This document shows positions 3,814 through 37,054 of a stretch of 64,000 bases of DNA, piece by piece (the stretch's first letter is position 1; each line of letters opens with the position of its first letter). Below the pieces are notes generated by a model. That model searched no databases. It saw only the letters and a program-made list of their open reading frames with translations, and had not been told where the DNA came from. A program made the position numbers and the translations under genes. The stretch lies in assembly GCA_024276495.1 (NCBI GenBank), contig JAJRXC010000002.1, positions 1 to 64,000 of the forward strand, written 5' to 3'. This stretch comes from Actinomycetes bacterium. GTDB lineage: Bacteria; Actinomycetota; Acidimicrobiia; Acidimicrobiales; Aldehydirespiratoraceae.

Positions 3814-4773
3814 TCAGGGACAGGTGACCGCCACGTTCGTCTCTACCTCGCCACCGCGGTCGGTCCCGATCGGCCCCGCGTAGGTCACGGTGTTGCCGTC
3901 GATCACGAAACCCTCGGCCTCGCCGGAGAGGCTCACGATGTAGTCGCCGTCGGGAGTGATGACGAACACAGAACCGATCCAGTCGTCGGGCCCTCCGCTC
4001 ATGTCGATGGAGAGCTGCAGGCCATCACGTCCGAGCCGATCGATCATGATGCCGATGTCGGCGGACGAGACCGCGCAGTCGACGCTCTGGGAACCGCTGA
4101 GCGGAAACGTGAAGGTCTCGCCATCGACCACGGCCATCGGATCAGCGCCTTCGCCCGATTCCCCGCAGTCGACCGCAACCCGCGCGCTCACCTCCTCGGC
4201 ATCGAGGACGTCGAAGTTCTCGATGCGATCGGCGACCCCCTCGAAGCTCAGGGCACCGTCGACGACTCCGAGCGTTCCCGGACCCCGGCCGAGGGAAACG
4301 CTGTACTGGGTGTTGAACTCACCGCGCGATCGGAAGGTGAACTGACCGCTCCAGCCTATGTCGTCGAGCCCGGCCTGGACGCTGAGGTCCTGCCCGTCGG
4401 GAGTCTGGAAGTTCACGCGGACCGCGTCGGGGCTGATCTCACACGTGTAGTTGAGCGAGCTCACCGCCTCGTAGACGAAGCGCTCGCCGTTCACCTCGGC
4501 GTACGCGGTCGCCGGGCCGGTGTCGAGGGTGATCCGATCACTGCTGGTAACGCCGCCATCACTGCCGGTGACGCCCCCGGTGGGACCGTCGTCAGCCGGC
4601 TCCGAGAGCTCCTCTCCGGGGCCGGCACCGCCGACCACGAAGGGACTCGTGCCCGCATCACCTCCGGCGCACGAAGCAGCCACCAGGAGGAACGCCAGTA
4701 CGACAAGGAGGACGCGTCGGGCGCGGAACTCGCGGGGAGATCGCGTCATCGAGCCGGCCTGTGGCTTGTTCAT
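3814..4773 (-). CDS. Secreted lipoprotein, LpqH-like, two domains
   Basis: The predicted 319-residue lipoprotein starts at the ATG at 4773, which has GGGGAG about seven bases upstream; an in-frame ATG at 4827 lacks support. A basic N terminus, a hydrophobic stretch and the lipobox-like L-V-A-A-S-C precede an acidic, Gly/Ser-rich linker. Two repeats of a beta-rich domain follow, each with a conserved cysteine pair; the protein ends in V-T-C-P. The downstream lipoprotein at 7952 ends the same way (A-T-C-P), so the two appear related; both recall mycobacterial LpqH in layout. It is divergent from the SARP regulator and shares an operator-like element with the 7952 gene. Function is unknown. Confidence 0.75.
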   Translation of the reverse strand: MNKPQAGSMTRSPREFRARRVLLVVLAFLLVAASCAGGDAGTSPFVVGGAGPGEELSEPADDGPTGGVTGSDGGVTSSDRITLDTGPATAYAEVNGERFVYEAVSSLNYTCEISPDAVRVNFQTPDGQDLSVQAGLDDIGWSGQFTFRSRGEFNTQYSVSLGRGPGTLGVVDGALSFEGVADRIENFDVLDAEEVSARVAVDCGESGEGADPMAVVDGETFTFPLSGSQSVDCAVSSADIGIMIDRLGRDGLQLSIDMSGGPDDWIGSVFVITPDGDYIVSLSGEAEGFVIDGNTVTYAGPIGTDRGGEVETNVAVTCP

Positions 4774-4807
4774 GTCAATCTCCCCGGTTCGAGCGTCCAC
4801 CGTCGAC

Positions 4808-4841
4808 ACTGTGGGTGCCATGGGCAAAGCAGGAGCAAAGG
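4808..4841 (-). promoter_or_regulatory. Candidate SARP operator plus -10 for the 3814-4773 lipoprotein gene
   Basis: Read on the minus strand, CCTTTGCTCCTGCTTTGC (4841 to 4824) contains two CTTTGC units spaced 11 bases apart. Ten bases later comes CACAGT (4813-4808), a possible -10. The same element in the same orientation and spacing precedes the lipoprotein gene at 7952. SARP (BTAD) regulators are known to bind short direct repeats phased by 11 bases that overlap the -35 region. The assignment to the neighbouring SARP gene is inference from position and geometry. Confidence 0.6.
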
Positions 4842-4922
4842 GTCGCGGGAAAGCAGCCGGGTGGCCGCACTACTCTGAGCGTGATTGGGGGGCGAAGTCG
4901 TGATCATTCGACCAGGCAACCG

Positions 4923-7862
4923 GTGATCTCTCGGCGGGTCTGCGTGTTGGGCGAACCGAGACTGTGCTCGGAGGTTGGCGAAGTGATCGTCGGCGGCCGG
5001 CCCGGCCGAGCTCTGGTCGCCCTGCTCGCCGACGAGGGCAGCCTTTCGCTGGACCAGCTGATCGAGTTGGTCTGGCCGGAGGGCCCACCCCGAACCGCCC
5101 GGGCCGCGCTGCACGTCCACCTCGGATCCCTTCGCAAGCTGCTGGCCGCGGCACCGCCAGGTCTGGCCGTCGAGCGACATGGCGAGCGTTATCGTCTCTC
5201 CCGCTCCGGTTGGGACCTCGATGTCGAGCTCGTCGCCGAGCACTCTGCGAAAGCCGAGGAGTTGCTGGCGGTCAACGCCCCCGAAGCGGCGGCCGATCAC
5301 TTCCGGCTGGCCCTCGAACTGTGGACCGGCGAGCCGTTCACCGTCGGGGGCATCGAGGTGTCCGCGACCGCAACCTACCGACTCCATCTCGTGCGCCTCG
5401 ACCTCGAGGAACAACTCGTCGAGGCCTACCTGGCGGCCTCCGACCCCGACCGGGCCGAGATGCTCGCCGTGCGGTTGGTCGAGGCCGAGCCCTACCGCGA
5501 ACATCGTTGGGCTCAACTGATGCGGGCACTCGCCCTCCACGGACGAGCCGTCGACGCGTTGGCGACCTATGAGCGGGTTCGACGCATGCTCGAGCGTGAT
5601 CTCGGTGTCTCTCCGGGAGCCGAGCTGAACCGACTCGAACGGTCAGTCCTCACCCACACCGTGTCGGCTGCGAACCCCACGCCGCAGCACCCGTTCGACT
5701 TGGACGAGATCCCCGCTCCGCTCGGAGACCTGATCGGCCGCGCGCCGCTTCTCGCTCAGATCGAGACGGCTCTGGCCCGCGGCGAACCGGTGCTGATCTG
5801 CGGGGCGCCGGGCGCGGGGAAGACTCGACTCGCGATCGAGGTCGCCCGCCGGGCCTCGGCCGCAACCAAACCGGTCGGCTGGGTCGACCTGCGAAACGCG
5901 GCGTTCGACCATCGGGCGTTCGGCGATGGCGTCACCCGGTGGGCCCGTGAGCACGTCAGCGGCACGATCATCTTGGACAACGCCGAGGAGACCATCGACG
6001 AGGTCGCCGAGCTCGTCGACTTGATCCGACGCGTCGCCCCTTCGGCGCACGTGGCAGTGACCAGTCGGGTCCCGCTCCCCGGCATCTCAGCCGTGATCAC
6101 CGTCCGTCCATTGCCCGTCCCGTATGTCGACGCCCCCGAGGAGATCGAGGGATCCGATTCCGTGCGACTTCTCCGCGAGCTCCTCGCGGTGACCGCCCCC
6201 GACGTCGAGCTCGACACCGGGGCGGCCGCGGAGCTCTGTCGCCGCGCCGGCGGGCTGCCGCTCGCGATCCGCCTGGCCGCCGACCTCGCCCGCTCCGTGC
6301 CGATCTCCGGGATCCCGGCCGCGGCACAGACCCGGCTCGGACCCGAGCTCGAAGGGGCGGTCGATGCGCTGCTCGAACATCTCGGACCCGGCACCGGCGA
6401 GGCCTTCGCCGCAGCGTCGGTTGTCGCCGGCCGGCTCGATGCCGACATGGTCGCCGCGCTCGTGGGCGGCCAGGCCCCCCACGACAAGATCTCCCGGCTG
6501 GTCGACCACGGGCTCCTCCAGTTCACCGCCGGCGACGACGCGCACTATTCGGTGCCGGAACCGCTGCGCGAGGTCGGTGTGTCGATGCTCACCGAGAAAA
6601 CCCGCAGTGCTGTGCTCGACCGGTTGTGCGACGAATGTTGGACGCGTGTGCAGGGGCTCACCCTGCCCACGGCGACAACCGTCACCGGTCAACGGCTCGA
6701 AGACCATCTCGAACGACAACTGCCGTGGTACCGCCAGTCCCTCGATCATCTCGTCTTGATCGGCGACGATCGCCGAGCCCTCGATCTCGTGGCGGCGATC
6801 GATCTCCAGCTCTACTCGCTCGGCTGGTGGCAGGAGAACCTCGAGTTTCAGGACACGGCGTTGTCCATTCCCGGCCCGGCGAGCGGCGCGCGGGCCCATG
6901 TCCACGCGATCCGGGGGCGGCCCGGACAGTTCCACCAGTTCGACGAGGACCACAACCGGGTCGCGCTGGCGATGGCCACCGAGACCAATGACATCGCATC
7001 GCGGGCCCGGGCTCGGTACCACCTCGGCGTTCGGAGCTGGTGGGCCGGCCGCCACGACGACGCCCTGGAGCAGCTGGCCCGCGCCCGAGCCGATGCCGAG
7101 GAGTCGGGCGATCTTTTTCTCATCGGAGAGTGCGTGCGATTCACGGGCATGGCGCTGGTCACCGCGGGGGAGACAGAACGGGGGCTCGCCACCCAAGTCG
7201 AGTTGATCCACATGGTCGAACGGATGCCGGAGCTGGCGCTGATCCTGCCGCATCTGTACATGCATCTCGGCCATTCTCGCCGTCATGTCGGCGACACCTC
7301 CGCGGCGCTCGCCGATCTCGGCCGTGCCCGCGACGGGTTCGAGGAGCTCGGAAACCGGGCGTCGCTCATCCACGTCTGCGCCGGGTTGGCCGAAGTCCAC
7401 ACCGATCTCGGCCGCTACGACCAGGCCCTGGAAGCGGCCGCACAATCGCTCGACGTCTCCACCGGTGGCCCGATCGGCGTGTACGACCCCTGGACCCTGT
7501 GCACCACCGCCCGGGTCCATGTCGCCGTCGGAGACGCCGATCTCGCCCGCCGCACTGCGGCGAGGGCGATCGACTCGCTCTCTCGGACCTTCCCCGGCGA
7601 GACCCACCGCGTCGCGGTCGAGCTGTCGTCGATCGCCCACGGCCTGGGCGAGTTCGGCGCGGCGTTGCGGCTCGCCGGGCTGGCCGACGCGACTCCCGAC
7701 CGACGGGAGCTCCCGTTCCGGTCCCCCGGCGAGCGACAGCGGTTGTGCGAGTCTCGAGACGCGGCCCATGATGAGCTGGGCGACGAAGGCGCCGTTGTGT
7801 ACGCCCAGGGCGCCACATCCAGCCTGGCCGAAGCAGCCGCACTGCTCATTCATCCTCGCTGA
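4923..7862 (+). CDS. SARP/AfsR-type transcriptional regulator (wHTH-BTAD-NB-ARC-TPR)
   Basis: With the GTG at 4923 the protein is 979 residues; this start puts R-V-C-V-L-G at the N terminus, as in other SARPs, and a GTG at 4881 is the alternative. Residues 1-90 form the OmpR-like winged helix, and about 95-245 the bacterial transcriptional activation domain (R-A-E-M-L-A-V-R-L-V...R-D-L-G-V-S-P-G). An NB-ARC-type ATPase follows with Walker A G-A-P-G-A-G-K-T near residue 294 and a Walker B-like I-I-L-D-N-A. The C-terminal 400 residues are TPR-like helical repeats. It probably activates nearby genes: both flanking lipoprotein genes carry the same 11-bp-phased repeat. Confidence 0.9.
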   Translation: MISRRVCVLGEPRLCSEVGEVIVGGRPGRALVALLADEGSLSLDQLIELVWPEGPPRTARAALHVHLGSLRKLLAAAPPGLAVERHGERYRLSRSGWDLDVELVAEHSAKAEELLAVNAPEAAADHFRLALELWTGEPFTVGGIEVSATATYRLHLVRLDLEEQLVEAYLAASDPDRAEMLAVRLVEAEPYREHRWAQLMRALALHGRAVDALATYERVRRMLERDLGVSPGAELNRLERSVLTHTVSAANPTPQHPFDLDEIPAPLGDLIGRAPLLAQIETALARGEPVLICGAPGAGKTRLAIEVARRASAATKPVGWVDLRNAAFDHRAFGDGVTRWAREHVSGTIILDNAEETIDEVAELVDLIRRVAPSAHVAVTSRVPLPGISAVITVRPLPVPYVDAPEEIEGSDSVRLLRELLAVTAPDVELDTGAAAELCRRAGGLPLAIRLAADLARSVPISGIPAAAQTRLGPELEGAVDALLEHLGPGTGEAFAAASVVAGRLDADMVAALVGGQAPHDKISRLVDHGLLQFTAGDDAHYSVPEPLREVGVSMLTEKTRSAVLDRLCDECWTRVQGLTLPTATTVTGQRLEDHLERQLPWYRQSLDHLVLIGDDRRALDLVAAIDLQLYSLGWWQENLEFQDTALSIPGPASGARAHVHAIRGRPGQFHQFDEDHNRVALAMATETNDIASRARARYHLGVRSWWAGRHDDALEQLARARADAEESGDLFLIGECVRFTGMALVTAGETERGLATQVELIHMVERMPELALILPHLYMHLGHSRRHVGDTSAALADLGRARDGFEELGNRASLIHVCAGLAEVHTDLGRYDQALEAAAQSLDVSTGGPIGVYDPWTLCTTARVHVAVGDADLARRTAARAIDSLSRTFPGETHRVAVELSSIAHGLGEFGAALRLAGLADATPDRRELPFRSPGERQRLCESRDAAHDELGDEGAVVYAQGATSSLAEAAALLIHPR

Positions 7863-7951: not shown

Positions 7952-8488
7952 ATGAAAGCCCTGACAGCCCTCCTGGGCTTCATTGCCCTGATAGCCGCAG
8001 CGTGCGGAAGTAGTTCACCCGACCCCGGATCTGCCCCAGCAGCGGACACCGCACCTTCTGGGATCAACGTGGACGAACTGGTCGAGGATCCGGAGGGTTT
8101 CGTCGAGGATCTCACCGACTCGTTGGAGGAGCAACAAAGCAGCCAGGGCGGAGGATCGGCCACCCTCGTCGTCGGCGACCAGACCTGGACCTTCGGTCCC
8201 GTCCTGTGTGCGTTCGGCCCGGACGAGATCGGTCAGGAAGGCGCTGAGTTCGTCTTGTCAGCTATCCAGGACGGAATGCAGATGTACGTTTCGATCGACG
8301 ACTTCGGCGAGTTCATCACCCTCGACGACGTCACGGACTTCGAGAATCCCTCGGTCGGAATCGGCTCCTCCGGTGGTATGGCGATCGAGATCGATGGCAA
8401 GTCCGTACGGGCCGAGGGAGAGTTCTTCGACAACGTCGCCGGCGGGTTCGACACGATCACGGGCACGTTCGAAGCGACGTGCCCGTGA
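7952..8488 (+). CDS. Secreted lipoprotein, LpqH-like, single domain
   Basis: This 178-residue lipoprotein starts at the ATG at 7952, preceded by AAGGAAGG. The signal peptide ends in the lipobox I-A-A-A-C at residues 16-20. An acidic linker (residues 30-65) leads to one beta-rich domain with two cysteines, V-L-C-A-F and the C-terminal A-T-C-P, which resembles the repeat of the lipoprotein at 3814-4773. It probably sits on the outer face of the membrane; no enzyme motif is visible. An upstream element is shared with the other lipoprotein gene, so both may answer to the SARP regulator between them. Confidence 0.8.
   Translation: MKALTALLGFIALIAAACGSSSPDPGSAPAADTAPSGINVDELVEDPEGFVEDLTDSLEEQQSSQGGGSATLVVGDQTWTFGPVLCAFGPDEIGQEGAEFVLSAIQDGMQMYVSIDDFGEFITLDDVTDFENPSVGIGSSGGMAIEIDGKSVRAEGEFFDNVAGGFDTITGTFEATCP
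8461..8484 (+). terminator. Hairpin at the 3' end of the lipoprotein gene
   Basis: GGGCACGT (8461-8468) and ACGTGCCC (8477-8484) form a perfect eight-base stem with an eight-base loop, just before the TGA at 8486-8488. A moderately T-rich stretch follows (8492-8506). It could end transcription between the lipoprotein gene and the secreted protein gene. It lies within codons, so it may also be chance in GC-rich DNA. Confidence 0.4.
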
Positions 8489-8589
8489 GCACTGTGTTGT
8501 GTCATTCGGCCCTGTCGAGCGGACACGCACACTGATACTCTCGGCTTTGGTTGGTTCAACGGTGGACCACCCGGACCGAAAAGGGCCTC

Positions 8590-25246: not shown

Positions 25247-25487
25247 TGATCCGGTCTTCTCGGGGTCGGGCCTCGGGACTCGCCACCGCGATTGTAGGTG
25301 GCGCGGCGCCCCCGGTCCCGGCCGAGGACGGCGGGGCCGACCCGACCCCGTTTGGCCGGAACAACGAAATATAGTCGCCCCGTGATGGGGACTCGGGGGA
25401 GATCGGCTCACGACGACCGGCATGGTCGCGCCGCTCGACCCCTCCATCGCCGTACCTCGTCCACGCCCCGCGACAGCCAGGAGCACC
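25247..25487. other. Divergent intergenic region, khtT / TlpA-like gene
   Basis: These 241 bases separate khtT from the thioredoxin-like gene. TATAGT at 25370-25375 is a possible -10 for the rightward gene, without a convincing -35 at 17 bases. AGGAG at 25479-25483 is the ribosome binding site of that gene. I looked for a c-di-AMP riboswitch in front of khtT and saw no recognisable conserved core. Confidence 0.5.
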
Positions 25488-26051
25488 ATGTCAGGCCAGC
25501 CATCCAAACGTTCGAGACGGGAAGCGGCGAAGCGCGCCGCACAGCGCCGTCAACGCATGAAGTGGGGTGGGTTCATCACCGCGCTCGTGTTGGGTGTGGG
25601 CGTCTTCGCCCTCTTCGGCGGGGGTGGAGACGGTGCCGCCGCGATGGCGCCCGACTTCGAGCTCAGCGGCCCCGATGGCGACACGGTCAGGCTCAGCGAT
25701 TTCCGCGGCCAGCCGGTCGCCGTCACCTTCATGCACACGTGGTGAGCGGCTTGTAACGCCAATGCCCCCGAGTTTCGGAAGGCCTACGACAAGTACCAGG
25801 ACCAGGGTTTCGAGGTCCTCTCCATCAGCATTCAGGAAGACAACGCCGAAGTCGTCGATTTCATCGACCGCTACGGCCTGACCTATCCGTTCATGATCGA
25901 CCGAACCGGCGCGGTCACCGCCGAGTACGAAGTGAGCGGCACGCCCACGACCTACTTCATCGCGCCCGACGGGACCATCGTCGACGAGCTCTCCGGTGTC
26001 GTCAGCGAACGATGGCTGGAGGAGAACATCGACGACTACATCAGCAGCTGA
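25488..26051 (+). CDS. TlpA-type thioredoxin-fold protein with UGA at the first redox cysteine (candidate selenoprotein)
   Basis: Read through one in-frame TGA (25743-25745), this gene encodes 187 residues. It has a basic N terminus, one membrane anchor (about residues 26-44), then an extracytoplasmic TlpA/AhpC-TSA domain. The strand V-A-V-T-F-M-H-T-W leads straight into [UGA]-A-A-C-N-A-N-A-P-E-F, so the UGA sits exactly at the first Cys of the CxxC motif (residue 86, partner Cys89). Downstream L-S-I-S-I-Q-E-D, the cis-Pro loop S-G-T-P-T-T-Y-F-I and the C-terminal helix are intact and in frame. A hairpin resembling a bacterial SECIS follows the UGA. Without read-through the product is an 85-residue fragment. 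Role: thiol or selenol-disulfide exchange outside the membrane. The ATG has AGGAG upstream; its end overlaps the kinase gene by 11 bases. Confidence 0.8.
25764..25783 (+). promoter_or_regulatory. SECIS-like hairpin downstream of the in-frame UGA
   Basis: Bases 25764-25766 (GCC) pair with 25781-25783 (GGC), and CCGA (25768-25771) pairs with TCGG (25775-25778) across a small internal loop. The apical loop is GTT. The stem starts 18 bases after the UGA and the loop lies 26 bases after it. A guanine at the first loop position and this distance fit the bacterial SECIS rules, which place the loop roughly 16-37 bases downstream. The stem is short, so chance is not excluded. Confidence 0.5.
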
Positions 26052-27462: not shown

Positions 27463-28148
27463 GGGTCGGCCCGCAGACAGAATCCGACACCACGCACGGT
27501 GTGGATCAGCTTCGGCTCCACATCGTCGATCTTGCGCCGGAGGTAGCTGATGAACGTGTCGACGACCGCCCAGTCACCATCGAAGTCGTAGGGCCAGACC
27601 TGGTCGAGGATCTGCACCCGGGTGAGGACGTGACCGGCGTTGACGAGGAGATAGTGCAACAACCGGAACTCGGTCGGCGAGAGATGGATCGAACGGCCGT
27701 CCCGGGTGACCCGATGGGCGTCAACGTCGAGGGTCAGGTCGGCACAACGCAGCCGCCGGGTCCGCGACGAGGCACCGCCGGGGGACAATCGCAGCCGGAC
27801 CCGCGCGACGAGCTCGGCCACCGCGAAGGGCTTGACCAGATAGTCGTCACCGCCCGTGGTGAGCCCACGGATGCGGTCATCGGCGCTGTCCCGGGCGGTG
27901 AGGAAGACAACCGGCACCTCGGATCCGTCGGCGCGGAGCCGGTCGAGGACCTCGAACCCGTCGACATCGGGAAGCATCACGTCGAGCACGACGACATCGG
28001 GCTCGAACGCGGCGACCCGGTCGAGCGCCTGGCGTCCGCCGTCCGCCGAGCAGGTGTCGAACCCGGCCCGTCGGAGCGCCGAGTCGACGACGAAGCGGAT
28101 GCTCTCCTCGTCGTCGACGATGAGGACCCGGGGCCGGGCTGGGGTCAT
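27459..28148 (-). CDS. OmpR-family response regulator
   Basis: The 229-residue protein has a receiver domain (V-D-D-E-E at residues 11-15, phospho-acceptor Asp56 in V-V-L-D-V-M-L-P, Lys106 in Y-L-V-K-P-F) and a C-terminal winged helix of the OmpR/PhoB type (H-L-S-P-T-E-F-R-L-L... R-K-I-D-D... T-V-R-G-V-G-F). It overlaps the CotH gene before it and the kinase gene after it, each by four bases. Two inverted copies of an 11-base-phased repeat upstream of the operon fit the binding mode of this family, which suggests autoregulation and control of the divergent DUF4956/VTC genes. Confidence 0.95.
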   Translation of the reverse strand: MTPARPRVLIVDDEESIRFVVDSALRRAGFDTCSADGGRQALDRVAAFEPDVVVLDVMLPDVDGFEVLDRLRADGSEVPVVFLTARDSADDRIRGLTTGGDDYLVKPFAVAELVARVRLRLSPGGASSRTRRLRCADLTLDVDAHRVTRDGRSIHLSPTEFRLLHYLLVNAGHVLTRVQILDQVWPYDFDGDWAVVDTFISYLRRKIDDVEPKLIHTVRGVGFCLRADP

Positions 28149-29478
28149 CGCGAAGAGACGAAGTGGGCCGCGACCCGCTCCGCTTCCTCTCGCACGACGG
28201 CCGGATCGACGAGATCGGCTGCGTCACGCTCGAGCACCGCGACGCGGCGGGCCAGGATCTCGGCGGCCACACCGCTCGCGTAGAGGGAGCGGGTCAGCGC
28301 GTCGACCTGCCCGGCCGTGATCTGGTCGAAGTCGGGGTTGGCGAGGAACCGGTCCACGAGCACATTGCTCCCGAACTCGGGAAGACCGGCCACCTCCGCC
28401 GCCGGCCCCCCGTCGGCGAGGAAACCGAGCCCGGCCAACGAGAAGTTGTTGTCCCAGGGCACCACGGTCCACCACTGCCGCGCCGGGTCGTAGTGCAGGT
28501 AGGCGTTGTTGCCGGGACCGTTGATGTCGTCGAAGTTCTGCAGCAGATCCTGCATGGCCAGGTAGACCGCGAACCCGACGACATCGAAACGCTCCGCCAT
28601 TCCCGCTGCGAAGGCCGCGTCGCCGGAGTTGTTGATGAAGTCGAGGAACTCCACGAGCGGCGTCAGATCGACATCGGCCTTGCCGGCCTTCTGGTCGAAC
28701 GACACGTCGTAGGCGTCGAAGTCGTCACCTCGGTACTCCCAGTTCCCGGCGCTCCTGGCCTTGTAGAGCCCGCCGCCGGCTCCGAAGGCCCGCACCATCC
28801 ATCCCTCGTCGGGGTTCTCCATCCCCAGCCGCAGACGCGCCGGACCCCCGTCGACACGAAACGGACCGGGACCGCGGCCTGCGACGCCAGGCCGGCCGCG
28901 TCGAGAAGGTCGACCGCCACGGCTTCGTTGAGCGATGTCTGGGAGGTGTTCGACCGGATCACCAGATCGTAGAGCCCCTCGTGGTTCTGGTCATCGACGA
29001 ACTTGTCGAGCCGGATCAGCCAGGGCAGGTCTTCGGGCCGGTCCGCCGAGGCGTCCCGCCCCGGGATCGCGGCCGGTCGCCCCTCTTCCGGTGGGGCCAG
29101 GCCCGACAGCGACGAGTTGCCCTTCAGCCGTACCCCGGCCCGTTCGTAGCTCACCCCGTCGAGGACGACGGTCGCCTCGATCCATTCCTTCTCACCGACC
29201 GCCGAGAACACGGCGATCATCGCGAGATAGTCGTCCCGGTCGAACGTGATGCTCACCTCGTGGACGTAGGAGTCGTCGAAGAAGGGCAGCTCCCGGGTGA
29301 TCTCGGGCTGCGTCGTCGCGGGACCGCCTTCGACCCCGGTGTCGATCCCCGTGTCGGTCGCCGCGGCGGGGCCGGGCGCGTCGCCTCCGGTGTCGTCGCC
29401 GCCGCTCGCGCTGCACGAGGCGGCGACGACGAAGAGTCCGGCGAGAACGACGAAGAGCCGACGACGTGGACATGACAT
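28145..29478 (-). pseudogene. CotH-kinase-family lipoprotein, frameshifted at a five-G run
   Basis: The first frame from the ATG at 29478 encodes a lipoprotein signal (F-V-V-A-A-S-C near residue 22) and the start of a CotH domain (R-L-K-G-N-S-S, L-I-R-L-D-K-F, N-E-A-V-A-V-D-L-L). The rest (E-N-P-D-E-G-W, P-W-D-N-N-F-S, Y-L-A-M-Q-D) is in another frame. Adding one G to the GGGGG run (28845-28849 on the plus strand as CCCCC) joins them as V-S-T-G-G-P-A-R-L-R-L-G-M-E-N-P and makes 1335 bases, 444 residues. CotH proteins are atypical secreted protein kinases. Followed by response regulator and kinase with overlapping ends. Homopolymer undercall or real frameshift. Confidence 0.85.
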
Positions 29479-29611: not shown

Positions 29612-30220
29612 GTGCCCCGGTCCGCGCTCTTCGCCATCGATCTCGTCGCCATCACGGTCCTGACGTTCGGCCTCTACTTCCCCCGCCACCGCCGCAAGGA
29701 CATGCTCGTCGCCTACCTCGGGGTGAACATCGGCGTGATGGCCGTCGCCCAGGCGCTGTCGTCGACGACGGTGGGTGCGGGACTCGGTCTCGGCCTGTTC
29801 GGTGTCTTGTCCATCATCCGGTTGCGGTCCGCCGAGCTCGACCAGGAGGAGATCGCCTACTACTTCGCCGCCCTCGCCCTCGGCCTGCTCGCCGGCTTCG
29901 AGGTGAACCCGGCCTGGCTGGCGCCCTCGATGATCGCTGCCATGCTGATCGCCCTGTTCGTCGGCGACCACCCCCGATTGTTCGGGCGCTACCGGGTGCA
30001 GGTCGTCATGCTCGACGCGGCCTACACGAACGAGGTCGAGCTGCGGGATCGACTGGCGGACCTGCTCGGCGCCACGGTGCATCGTGTCCGCGTCCGTCGG
30101 GTCGACCTCGTGCGCGAGACGACGAGTGACGAGGTCCGCTACCAGATGGATGGTCGGCGAACCGGGCCCGCGCCCACTCCTCGACCCACGCTCGCGCCCG
30201 ACTCGGGGGACCCGGCGTGA
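29612..30220 (+). CDS. DUF4956-family membrane protein
   Basis: The 202-residue protein (GTG start) has four hydrophobic segments in the first 120 residues and the DUF4956 pattern F-G-V-L-S-I-I-R-L-R-S after the third, followed by a soluble C-terminal domain of about 70 residues. A proline-rich tail ends the protein. DUF4956 genes are often found with VTC-domain and CotH genes, as here. Function of the family is not established; a link to surface phosphorylation or polyphosphate-type chemistry is inferred from neighbours. The VTC gene overlaps its stop (GTGA). Confidence 0.85.
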   Translation: MPRSALFAIDLVAITVLTFGLYFPRHRRKDMLVAYLGVNIGVMAVAQALSSTTVGAGLGLGLFGVLSIIRLRSAELDQEEIAYYFAALALGLLAGFEVNPAWLAPSMIAAMLIALFVGDHPRLFGRYRVQVVMLDAAYTNEVELRDRLADLLGATVHRVRVRRVDLVRETTSDEVRYQMDGRRTGPAPTPRPTLAPDSGDPA

Positions 30221-31002
30221 TCGATGTCGAGATGCCGGCGGTCGGGCTCGATGAGCTCAACACCGTCGCCGCGCTGCAGCACCGGTGCGACCGCAAGTAC
30301 ATCCTGACGATCGACGACGCCCGTGATCTCGTTCTCGCGCTGAGGTCGCGGGCCCGGGTGCTCGAGATCGACGGTGTCCGGTCGTTTCGCTACGAATCGG
30401 TCTACTTCGACACACCCGGGCTCGATCTCTATCTGGCGGCGGCCCGCAGTCGACCGCGCCGGCACAAGATCCGGACCCGGACCTATCTCGATTCGGGTGA
30501 CTGCGCGTTGGAGGTGAAGACCAGGGACGCCCGGGGTCGCACCGTCAAGCATCGCCGACCGCACCGGGCCGATCGGCGCCGAACCGTCACCGACCACGAG
30601 AGGGCGTTCCTCGCCGGAATCGTCGGCGGCGACGCGACGCCCGGATCGTTGTCGCCGGCCCTGGTCACCCGGTTCGAACGTTTCACGCTGCTGATCGCGA
30701 CGTCGTCGGGTCGCGTCACGATCGACACGGGCCTCCGGTGCGCGCTCCCCGACGGCGGAGCGGCTGTCGGGCCCGACTTCGTGCTCGTCGAGACGAAGTC
30801 GGATCGTGGCACCACGCTGATCGATCGACTCCTGTGGTCGTGGCACCATCGTCCCGCCAAGATCAGCAAGTACTGCGTCGGCCTGGCCGCGTTGACGCCG
30901 GGGCTCCCGGCGAACAAGTGGAGCCGCGTGCTTCGTCGCCATTTCCCCCCGATCGCCGTGTCCTTCTCGACCGGCGGGGATTCGTCGTGTAAAACTCCTT
31001 AA
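30217..31002 (+). CDS. VTC-domain (polyphosphate polymerase domain) protein
   Basis: The 261-residue protein matches the VTC catalytic tunnel domain of the CYTH-like superfamily. Seen are R-C-D-R-K-Y near residue 23, S-V-Y-F-D-T-P near 66, R-x-R-R-H-K-I-R-T-R-T-Y basic strand near 80, L-E-V-K-T near residue 98 and the late V-E-T-K-S. The E-x-K pairs and basic residues line a triphosphate/metal tunnel in yeast Vtc4, which makes polyphosphate from ATP. In bacteria with DUF4956 and CotH the product is unknown. GTG start; the stop TAA overlaps the first island operator site. Confidence 0.85.
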   Translation: MIDVEMPAVGLDELNTVAALQHRCDRKYILTIDDARDLVLALRSRARVLEIDGVRSFRYESVYFDTPGLDLYLAAARSRPRRHKIRTRTYLDSGDCALEVKTRDARGRTVKHRRPHRADRRRTVTDHERAFLAGIVGGDATPGSLSPALVTRFERFTLLIATSSGRVTIDTGLRCALPDGGAAVGPDFVLVETKSDRGTTLIDRLLWSWHHRPAKISKYCVGLAALTPGLPANKWSRVLRRHFPPIAVSFSTGGDSSCKTP

Positions 31003-35512: not shown

Positions 35513-37054
35513 ATGCATGCCGTCTCCTCCGATCCGATCGACCATGGTACGGGATCGCTCGTCGTCACGAATCTCGAAGTCGGCTTCGGTGGCAACATCG
35601 CGGTCGCCGGTGTCTCGTTTCGGGTCGACCCCGGCGAGATCGTCGCCCTGATCGGCCCCAACGGGGCCGGCAAGACCACGATCATCGATGCCATCACCGG
35701 CCTCGTCGACTCCACCGGATCAGTCGTCCACGCCGGCCGACGCCTCGATCGGCTGTCGACCTACCAGCGGGCGCGGCTCGGGGTCGTCCGCACCTTCCAG
35801 ACCCTCGATCTCTTCGACGACCTCACGGTTCGTCAGAACGTCGAGCTGGAGACCCGTGAGCGGCACTGGTGGCGCTGGCTTCCCGCCCTGTTCGCCGCCC
35901 ACGATCCGGTTCCCGCGGTGGAGCACGCGTTGGAGCTCGTCGGGCTGACCGCCGAGGCCGACCGCCTGCCCGACGAGTTGCCGCTCGGCCGGCGTCGCCT
36001 CGTCGACCTGGCTCGGGCGATGGCTCGCGACCCCCGGGTGCTGCTGCTCGACGAACCCACGTCCGGTCTGGGCCGAGAGGACGCCGACATGGTCGGCGCC
36101 ACGGTTCAGGCGATCGCCGACCGGGGCCCGGGCGTGCTGTTGATCGAGCACGATGTCGACCTGGTCTTTCGCGTCGCGGACCGCGTGATCGCGCTCGACT
36201 TCGGTGCCGTCATCGCCGCCGGGACCCCCGACGAGGTCCGGCACAACGAACGGGTCGCCGCGACCTATCTCGGATCGCGGGCCGGTTCGGGCGTCTCCAC
36301 CCCTCCGCGGCGCACGCTCGATCCGGCATCGAACGGCCGCGCCCTTCTCACGTTGCGTGACGTGAGTGCCGGCTACGACGCCGCCGACGTCGTTCGGGGA
36401 ATGGATCTCGACGTCCGCGCCGGCGAGGTCGCCGCCCTGGTCGGACCGAACGGTGCCGGGAAGTCGACCCTGCTCCGACGGATCATCGGGCTCGTCGAGG
36501 GCTCCCGCGGATCGATCCTCCTCGACGGTGAGCCGATCGATTCGCTGCCGGCCCACCGGCGGGCCAAGGCCGGCATCGCGCTGGTTCCCGAGGGGAGGGC
36601 GCTTTTTCCCCAACTCACCGTGCGCCAGAACCTTCGCCTGGGCGACGGTAGCCGCAACGACGATCTCGACCGGATCCTCGCGGTCTTCCCCGCCCTCGAG
36701 GGGCTCCTCGATCGCCGGGCGGGGCTCCTGTCCGGCGGTGAGCAACAGATGCTCGCGATCGGACGGGCCCTCGCGGCCGAACCGCGGGTGCTGTTGGTCG
36801 ACGAGATGAGCCAGGGTCTCGCCCCCACCGTCGTCGACGAGTTGTTTCGAAGCCTTCTGCAGCTGGCCGACGAGAAGAACCTCGCGGTGCTCGTCGTCGA
36901 GCAGTATGTCGAGCAGGCGCTGGCGTCGGTCCACCAGGTCCACGTGATGATCCGCGGCGAGATCGAGCGCAGTGGCGTGCCGTTCACCGAAGGACTCACG
37001 ACCGCCGACATCCTCGCGGTCTATCTCGGCGACGGCCCAGCCTCGGTTCTGTGA
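35513..37054 (+). CDS. Liv-type ABC ATPase, LivG-LivF fusion
   Basis: The 513-residue protein contains two ABC ATPase domains. Domain 1 has Walker A G-P-N-G-A-G-K-T-T near residue 45 and Walker B V-L-L-L-D-E-P-T-S-G; its signature is atypical (L-P-L-G-R-R-R in place of LSGGQ). Domain 2 (from about residue 280) has G-P-N-G-A-G-K-S-T, the signature L-S-G-G-E-Q-Q and V-L-L-V-D-E-M-S-Q-G-L. It powers import through the fused LivHM permease. The weak signature in one half suggests an asymmetric dimer with one stronger ATP site. A strong hairpin ends the unit. Confidence 0.95.
   Translation: MHAVSSDPIDHGTGSLVVTNLEVGFGGNIAVAGVSFRVDPGEIVALIGPNGAGKTTIIDAITGLVDSTGSVVHAGRRLDRLSTYQRARLGVVRTFQTLDLFDDLTVRQNVELETRERHWWRWLPALFAAHDPVPAVEHALELVGLTAEADRLPDELPLGRRRLVDLARAMARDPRVLLLDEPTSGLGREDADMVGATVQAIADRGPGVLLIEHDVDLVFRVADRVIALDFGAVIAAGTPDEVRHNERVAATYLGSRAGSGVSTPPRRTLDPASNGRALLTLRDVSAGYDAADVVRGMDLDVRAGEVAALVGPNGAGKSTLLRRIIGLVEGSRGSILLDGEPIDSLPAHRRAKAGIALVPEGRALFPQLTVRQNLRLGDGSRNDDLDRILAVFPALEGLLDRRAGLLSGGEQQMLAIGRALAAEPRVLLVDEMSQGLAPTVVDELFRSLLQLADEKNLAVLVVEQYVEQALASVHQVHVMIRGEIERSGVPFTEGLTTADILAVYLGDGPASVL

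Follow-up and report, generated by a model that had tools for sequence, protein, structure and literature searches.

Thioredoxin-fold proteins with selenocysteine (Sec) in the active site are a known kind of bacterial selenoprotein. The available text of a 2026 review lists predicted UxxC selenoproteins under PF00578, PF08534 and cd02966, named in its Table 1 as 'Prx-like thiol:disulfide oxidoreductase', 'Redoxin family protein' and 'Thiol-disulfide isomerase-like protein', as well as a UGC form of TlpA (PMC13188914). An earlier review likewise gives UxxC for PF00578 and for a redoxin family protein (PMC9312934). Sec within a TlpA/ResA-like domain has been described as UGC in two forms, the NCBIfam entry NF041054 ('ResA-like WAxxUGC motif-containing protein') and the 'UGC-containing TlpA disulfide reductase family protein' named in the same 2026 text (PMC13188914). 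Searches of one open-access library for selenoproteins combined with Acidimicrobi, and for TlpA, selenocysteine and CcdA together, found no paper.

The window analysed here is a stretch of DNA of 64,000 nucleotides. It holds a forward frame with a single inner TGA between HTW and AAC (HTW-U-AAC), and comparison with related genes indicates that this UGA very probably encodes Sec in a TlpA/ResA-like protein (Table). An earlier reading, made from the sequence alone, had proposed the same; the frame, the position of the TGA, its HTW/AAC context and the hairpin coordinates are all as it described, and its Sec interpretation is now supported by Sec machinery in the genome and by four relatives with UGA at the same site. 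When Sec is replaced by Cys, the translation matches AhpC-TSA (PF00578; residues 53-165; 100 bits against a cut-off of 26) and Redoxin (PF08534; 85.9 bits against 26.6), and both matches span the TGA.

Table. Coordinates of the predicted selenoprotein gene and associated features in the window.
Feature	Position	Strand	Remarks
Predicted Sec-containing TlpA/ResA-like gene	25488..26051	+	187 aa, Sec86 predicted; second TGA, 26049-26051, taken as normal stop
AGGAG, ribosome-binding-site-like motif	25479..25483	+	5' of the ATG; spotted by eye
Hydrophobic stretch, residues 26-43	25563..25616	+	Preceded by a basic N-terminus; a likely membrane anchor, judged from sequence
UGA codon, probable selenocysteine	25743..25745	+	Takes the first Cys position of CxxC (UAAC)
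Frozen codons, +4 to +14 after the UGA	25755..25787	+	8/8 invariant residues with a single codon in five genes
bSECIS-like hairpin	25764..25783	+	Loop GUU in the window, AGUUN in relatives; within the synonymously frozen stretch

A profile of the five UGA-containing genes described below found ResA chains as its best solved relatives (E 2.2e-29), followed by other TlpA-like proteins, among them TlpA (1jfu; 3e-10), with the Sec column aligned to the first Cys of ResA. Columns 86, 89 and T152-P153 are invariant in the five genes; the conserved Thr-Pro is presumably the cis-Pro loop. The protein thus resembles the Cys oxidoreductases ResA and TlpA in its profile match, its likely membrane anchor and the Thr-Pro before the C-terminal part, and differs from them in the predicted Sec for the first Cys and in FMHT[W/Y] where ResA has FWGTW. 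The NCBIfam ResA model (NF002854) gave 115.2 bits against a cut-off of 170, so the protein was not filed as ResA proper. NF041054 (WAxxUGC_long) gave 52.8 against 300 bits; although that entry and the UGC TlpA forms likewise carry Sec in a TlpA/ResA-like domain, their motif is UGC, whereas that of the window protein is of the UxxC kind (UAAC). The window protein shares both its Pfam domains and UxxC with the TlpA/Prx-like selenoproteins that the available review text lists, a likeness at the level of domain and motif; its branch is distinguished by FMHT[W/Y]UxAC and, at some loci, by a CcdA-like gene and a Cys TlpA paralogue nearby (PMC13188914). Because UxxC members of the fold are already listed in that text, we regard the window gene as a new branch within a known selenoprotein kind. 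An AlphaFold model from the five-row alignment (mean pLDDT 45.2) was too poor to use.

With a threshold of E 1e-15, searches of 51 genomes of the family gave 35 matches, 4 with one inner TGA and 31 without. The inner-TGA matches (the window gene, one gene in genome G028 and two in G022) are the top four of the 35. A fifth such gene, 70% identical to the window gene, was found in G271, which belongs to another family of the same order; together the four homologues from three other genomes are 56-70% identical to the window gene. The sequence-only reading had proposed aligning homologues, and had named a lack of UGA relatives together with loss of the hairpin as evidence against Sec. In the alignment the TGAs of all five close genes (four genomes) share one column, Cys occupies both active-site positions in 25/25 more distant relatives read, and the hairpin region is conserved. 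The 25 come from 27 loci (L024-L050). One of the others, L046, is itself a Sec gene and entered the tree from its alignment; L036, listed without an inner stop, was excluded from the Cys count because its match lay off the assumed offset. Five more of the 31 stop-free matches had no locus of their own and stand outside the 25; they include Cys TlpA genes of G022 and of contig C40 of the window's genome, and three of the five (two from G022, one from C40) were read in the paralogue control given below and have CxxC.

In a tree of 30 rows the five Sec genes fall on one side of a branch with support 96/97, a placement that carries a long-branch warning. No Cys form within the Sec branch was found among the relatives read; the wider family is Cys. 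A further scan of contigs added one distant locus at 34% identity. Searches at E 1e-30 covered 395 genomes from the class and 397 from the order, both samples of larger groups, and scored at most 8 candidates in the genomes listed; among the matches listed, the gene was found only in the window's genome and G271. In 39 genomes of G271's family it was found in G271 only. Matches were obtained in 981 of 72,556 plasmid records, all below 60% identity and none reaching 80% query coverage.

The sequence-only reading had made its case depend on Sec machinery in the genome, and all four components were found there. SelA (E 1.5e-96) and SelB (275.3 bits, above cut-off) adjoin on contig C79, SelD scores 368.6 bits, and a tRNA-Sec over the Rfam gathering score has the anticodon TCA according to ARAGORN. 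SelB and SelD were searched for in the window's genome; tRNA-Sec scores above cut-off in all four carrier genomes, each of which also has SelA. SelA is present in 51 of the 52 genomes examined, i.e., in 50/51 of the family (the window's included) and in G271. Since Sec-TlpA was found in three genomes of the family, other selenoproteins, SelD perhaps, probably maintain the machinery. In the selD gene of the window's genome (L019, G000:C48:14587-15504), one TGA lies early in the frame, at locus position 1531 (G-[TGA]-G-C-K), and the gene product looks like a Sec-type SelD.

The loop G of the hairpin behind the UGA lies 26 bases past the codon. Bacterial SECIS rules, including a free-energy limit of -7.5 kcal/mol, are given in the available review text (PMC13188914). 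The window hairpin satisfies loop, stem and spacing (26) and, at -7.4 kcal/mol, falls just short of the published limit; the four relatives satisfy the published rule, with -12.4 to -12.7 kcal/mol, spacing 25 and loop AGUUN. The 58 nt from the UGA fold at -12.6 kcal/mol with a z of 0.36, which is not above chance. When a simple version of the published rules was run with a limit of -7.4, a hairpin of the same class followed 784 of the 1338 TGA trinucleotides on both strands of the window, and for the window gene the scan chose a different hairpin. Such a scan has therefore no discriminating power here, and the hairpin was dropped as stand-alone evidence. The SECIS argument put forward earlier is thus weak as far as the single hairpin goes, and it is the comparison with the relatives that carries it.

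Codon usage behind the UGA revealed a local constraint. In the 15 codons after the UGA, one codon is used in all five genes at 8 of 10 invariant residues, against 11 of 68 elsewhere (permutation p 6e-5), and mean pairwise codon identity at invariant residues is 0.88 there vs 0.50 elsewhere; the 15 codons before the UGA, which are part of the 68, have 2 of 10 frozen. The freeze is strongest in the hairpin region, at codons +4 to +14. Five Cys TlpA paralogues from the same four genomes served as the control set and gave 1/12 frozen after CxxC against 12/79 elsewhere (p 0.77). Conservation of the TGA in five genes and the synonymous freeze behind it, with this negative control, are well above chance. 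The codon spanned by the loop AGUU is Leu (TTG or TTA) in each of the four relatives and Phe (TTT) in the window gene; the 33 training frames of the window have 2 TTA and 131 TTG among 1287 Leu codons, counts that describe the window's genome and not the relatives. The frozen stretch sits at the place expected of a bSECIS. This argues against decoding of the UGA as Cys or Trp through leaky readthrough or a variant code, as do the presence of tRNA-Sec, SelA, SelB and SelD and the use of TGA to terminate the window gene where its relatives end; such decoding, for which it can be said that Sec and Cys look alike in an alignment, appears very improbable.

UGA is normally a stop codon, and the gene itself ends with TGA, so a true stop at 25743 would follow from the standard code and leave a short membrane peptide, perhaps accompanied by a C-terminal piece with a start of its own. 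Nevertheless, the AhpC-TSA match continues through the TGA, the TGA occupies the column of the catalytic Cys, the synonymous freeze behind the UGA is absent from the Cys paralogues, and the Sec machinery is present. There is thus very little chance that translation simply ends here, and Sec insertion remains by far the preferred reading. Selection also continues past the TGA: compared with the window gene, the relatives gave dN of 0.17-0.30, dS of 0.79-1.12 and ratios of about 0.21-0.27, which places the downstream part under purifying selection. An error of sequencing or assembly, or a recent nonsense mutation that left a pseudogene, would require one base change from a Cys codon (TGA in place of TGC or TGT) in a draft assembly of 111 contigs, but it is highly unlikely given this continued selection and the four further genes with the same TGA in three other genomes, one of which (G028) is a single-contig assembly.

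When codon usage was scanned across the window for in-frame TGAs flanked on either side by coding-like sequence, four were returned, and the TGA at 25743 had the top score. Two lower-scoring candidates on the reverse strand were rejected: 6089 lies inside a forward frame (4761-7862) with a Pfam match, and 35722 inside another (35513-37054) with a Pfam match, its own read-through frame having none. The second-best score belongs to a reverse-strand TGA at 8260 (in 8018-8587, reverse); no Pfam match was found for its read-through frame or for two forward frames tested there. The sequence-only reading had cautioned that three other interruptions occur within 15 kb. One was identified, a frame change at about 28.7-28.8 kb in a CotH-kinase-like gene, but it is not an in-frame TGA. 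This gene (28145-29478, reverse) looks split into two frames overlapping at about 28663-28822; the part at lower coordinates aligns to the CotH model from position 86 onward, and the other part has no Pfam match. The split looks like a frameshift, real or assembly-made. Near it, a DUF4956 gene is followed directly by a VTC-domain gene (29612-31002, forward).

Gene neighbourhoods differ among the five loci. A CcdA/DsbD-like membrane gene lies directly upstream on the same strand at three of them (G028 and both G022 loci), with a divergent Cys TlpA gene beyond it. The G028 copy, the one scanned, matches DsbD_TM with 25.9 bits, below the Pfam cut-off of 27.1, and shares 79% identity with the G022 copies. 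Genome G022 has two Sec-TlpA genes (L023, L046; L054, L055), each by its own CcdA-like and Cys TlpA gene. Cytochrome oxidase genes (COX2 and COX3 by Pfam) flank the G028 locus, and one G022 locus is flanked by relatives of the G028 neighbours, a COX3-type gene and a long gene, putatively COX1. In G271 a divergent Cys TlpA gene is adjacent, and no CcdA-like gene was found in the 13 kb of sequence covered at the locus. On one side of the window gene are genes for an antiporter and a TrkA-C protein, on the other those of a two-component system (response regulator by sequence), and neither a CcdA-like nor a COX gene is beside it; Cys TlpA, COX-like genes and a CcdA-like gene occur together on contig C40 of the same genome.

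Based on these comparisons, the product would be a TlpA/ResA-type thiol-disulfide reductase with a thioredoxin fold, anchored in the membrane and facing outward, in which the N-terminal active-site Cys is replaced by Sec ([W/Y]-U-x-x-C). SelB and tRNA-Sec would insert Sec at the UGA, directed by an RNA element in the next 14 codons; the selenol would attack disulfides of extracytoplasmic partners, and Cys89 would resolve the Se-S intermediate. The CcdA/DsbD-like gene directly upstream at three of the five loci suggests that such a membrane protein supplies the electrons, and the cytochrome c oxidase genes beside two of these loci suggest that the likeliest substrates are thiols in the assembly of the oxidase (CuA) or of cytochrome c, although both assignments are tentative. 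Oxidase assembly is named as the likeliest role because Bradyrhizobium TlpA reduces ScoI and COX II, according to a review (PMC6696091). It is possible, though rather doubtful at present, that a CcdA/DsbD-like transmembrane thiol relay serving the assembly of cytochrome c oxidase has the Sec-only TlpA branch as its outward arm, with a Cys TlpA paralogue alongside.

A gene caller unaware of Sec would end this gene at the UGA and lose a redox enzyme. With five genes, a measurable freeze and matched Cys controls, the Sec-TlpA branch is a clean test case for bacterial SECIS elements that look weak. If the gene context holds, selenium would be tied to a thiol relay in the membrane, close to cytochrome oxidase, and if the relay reading is true, selenium would be used in oxidase maturation.
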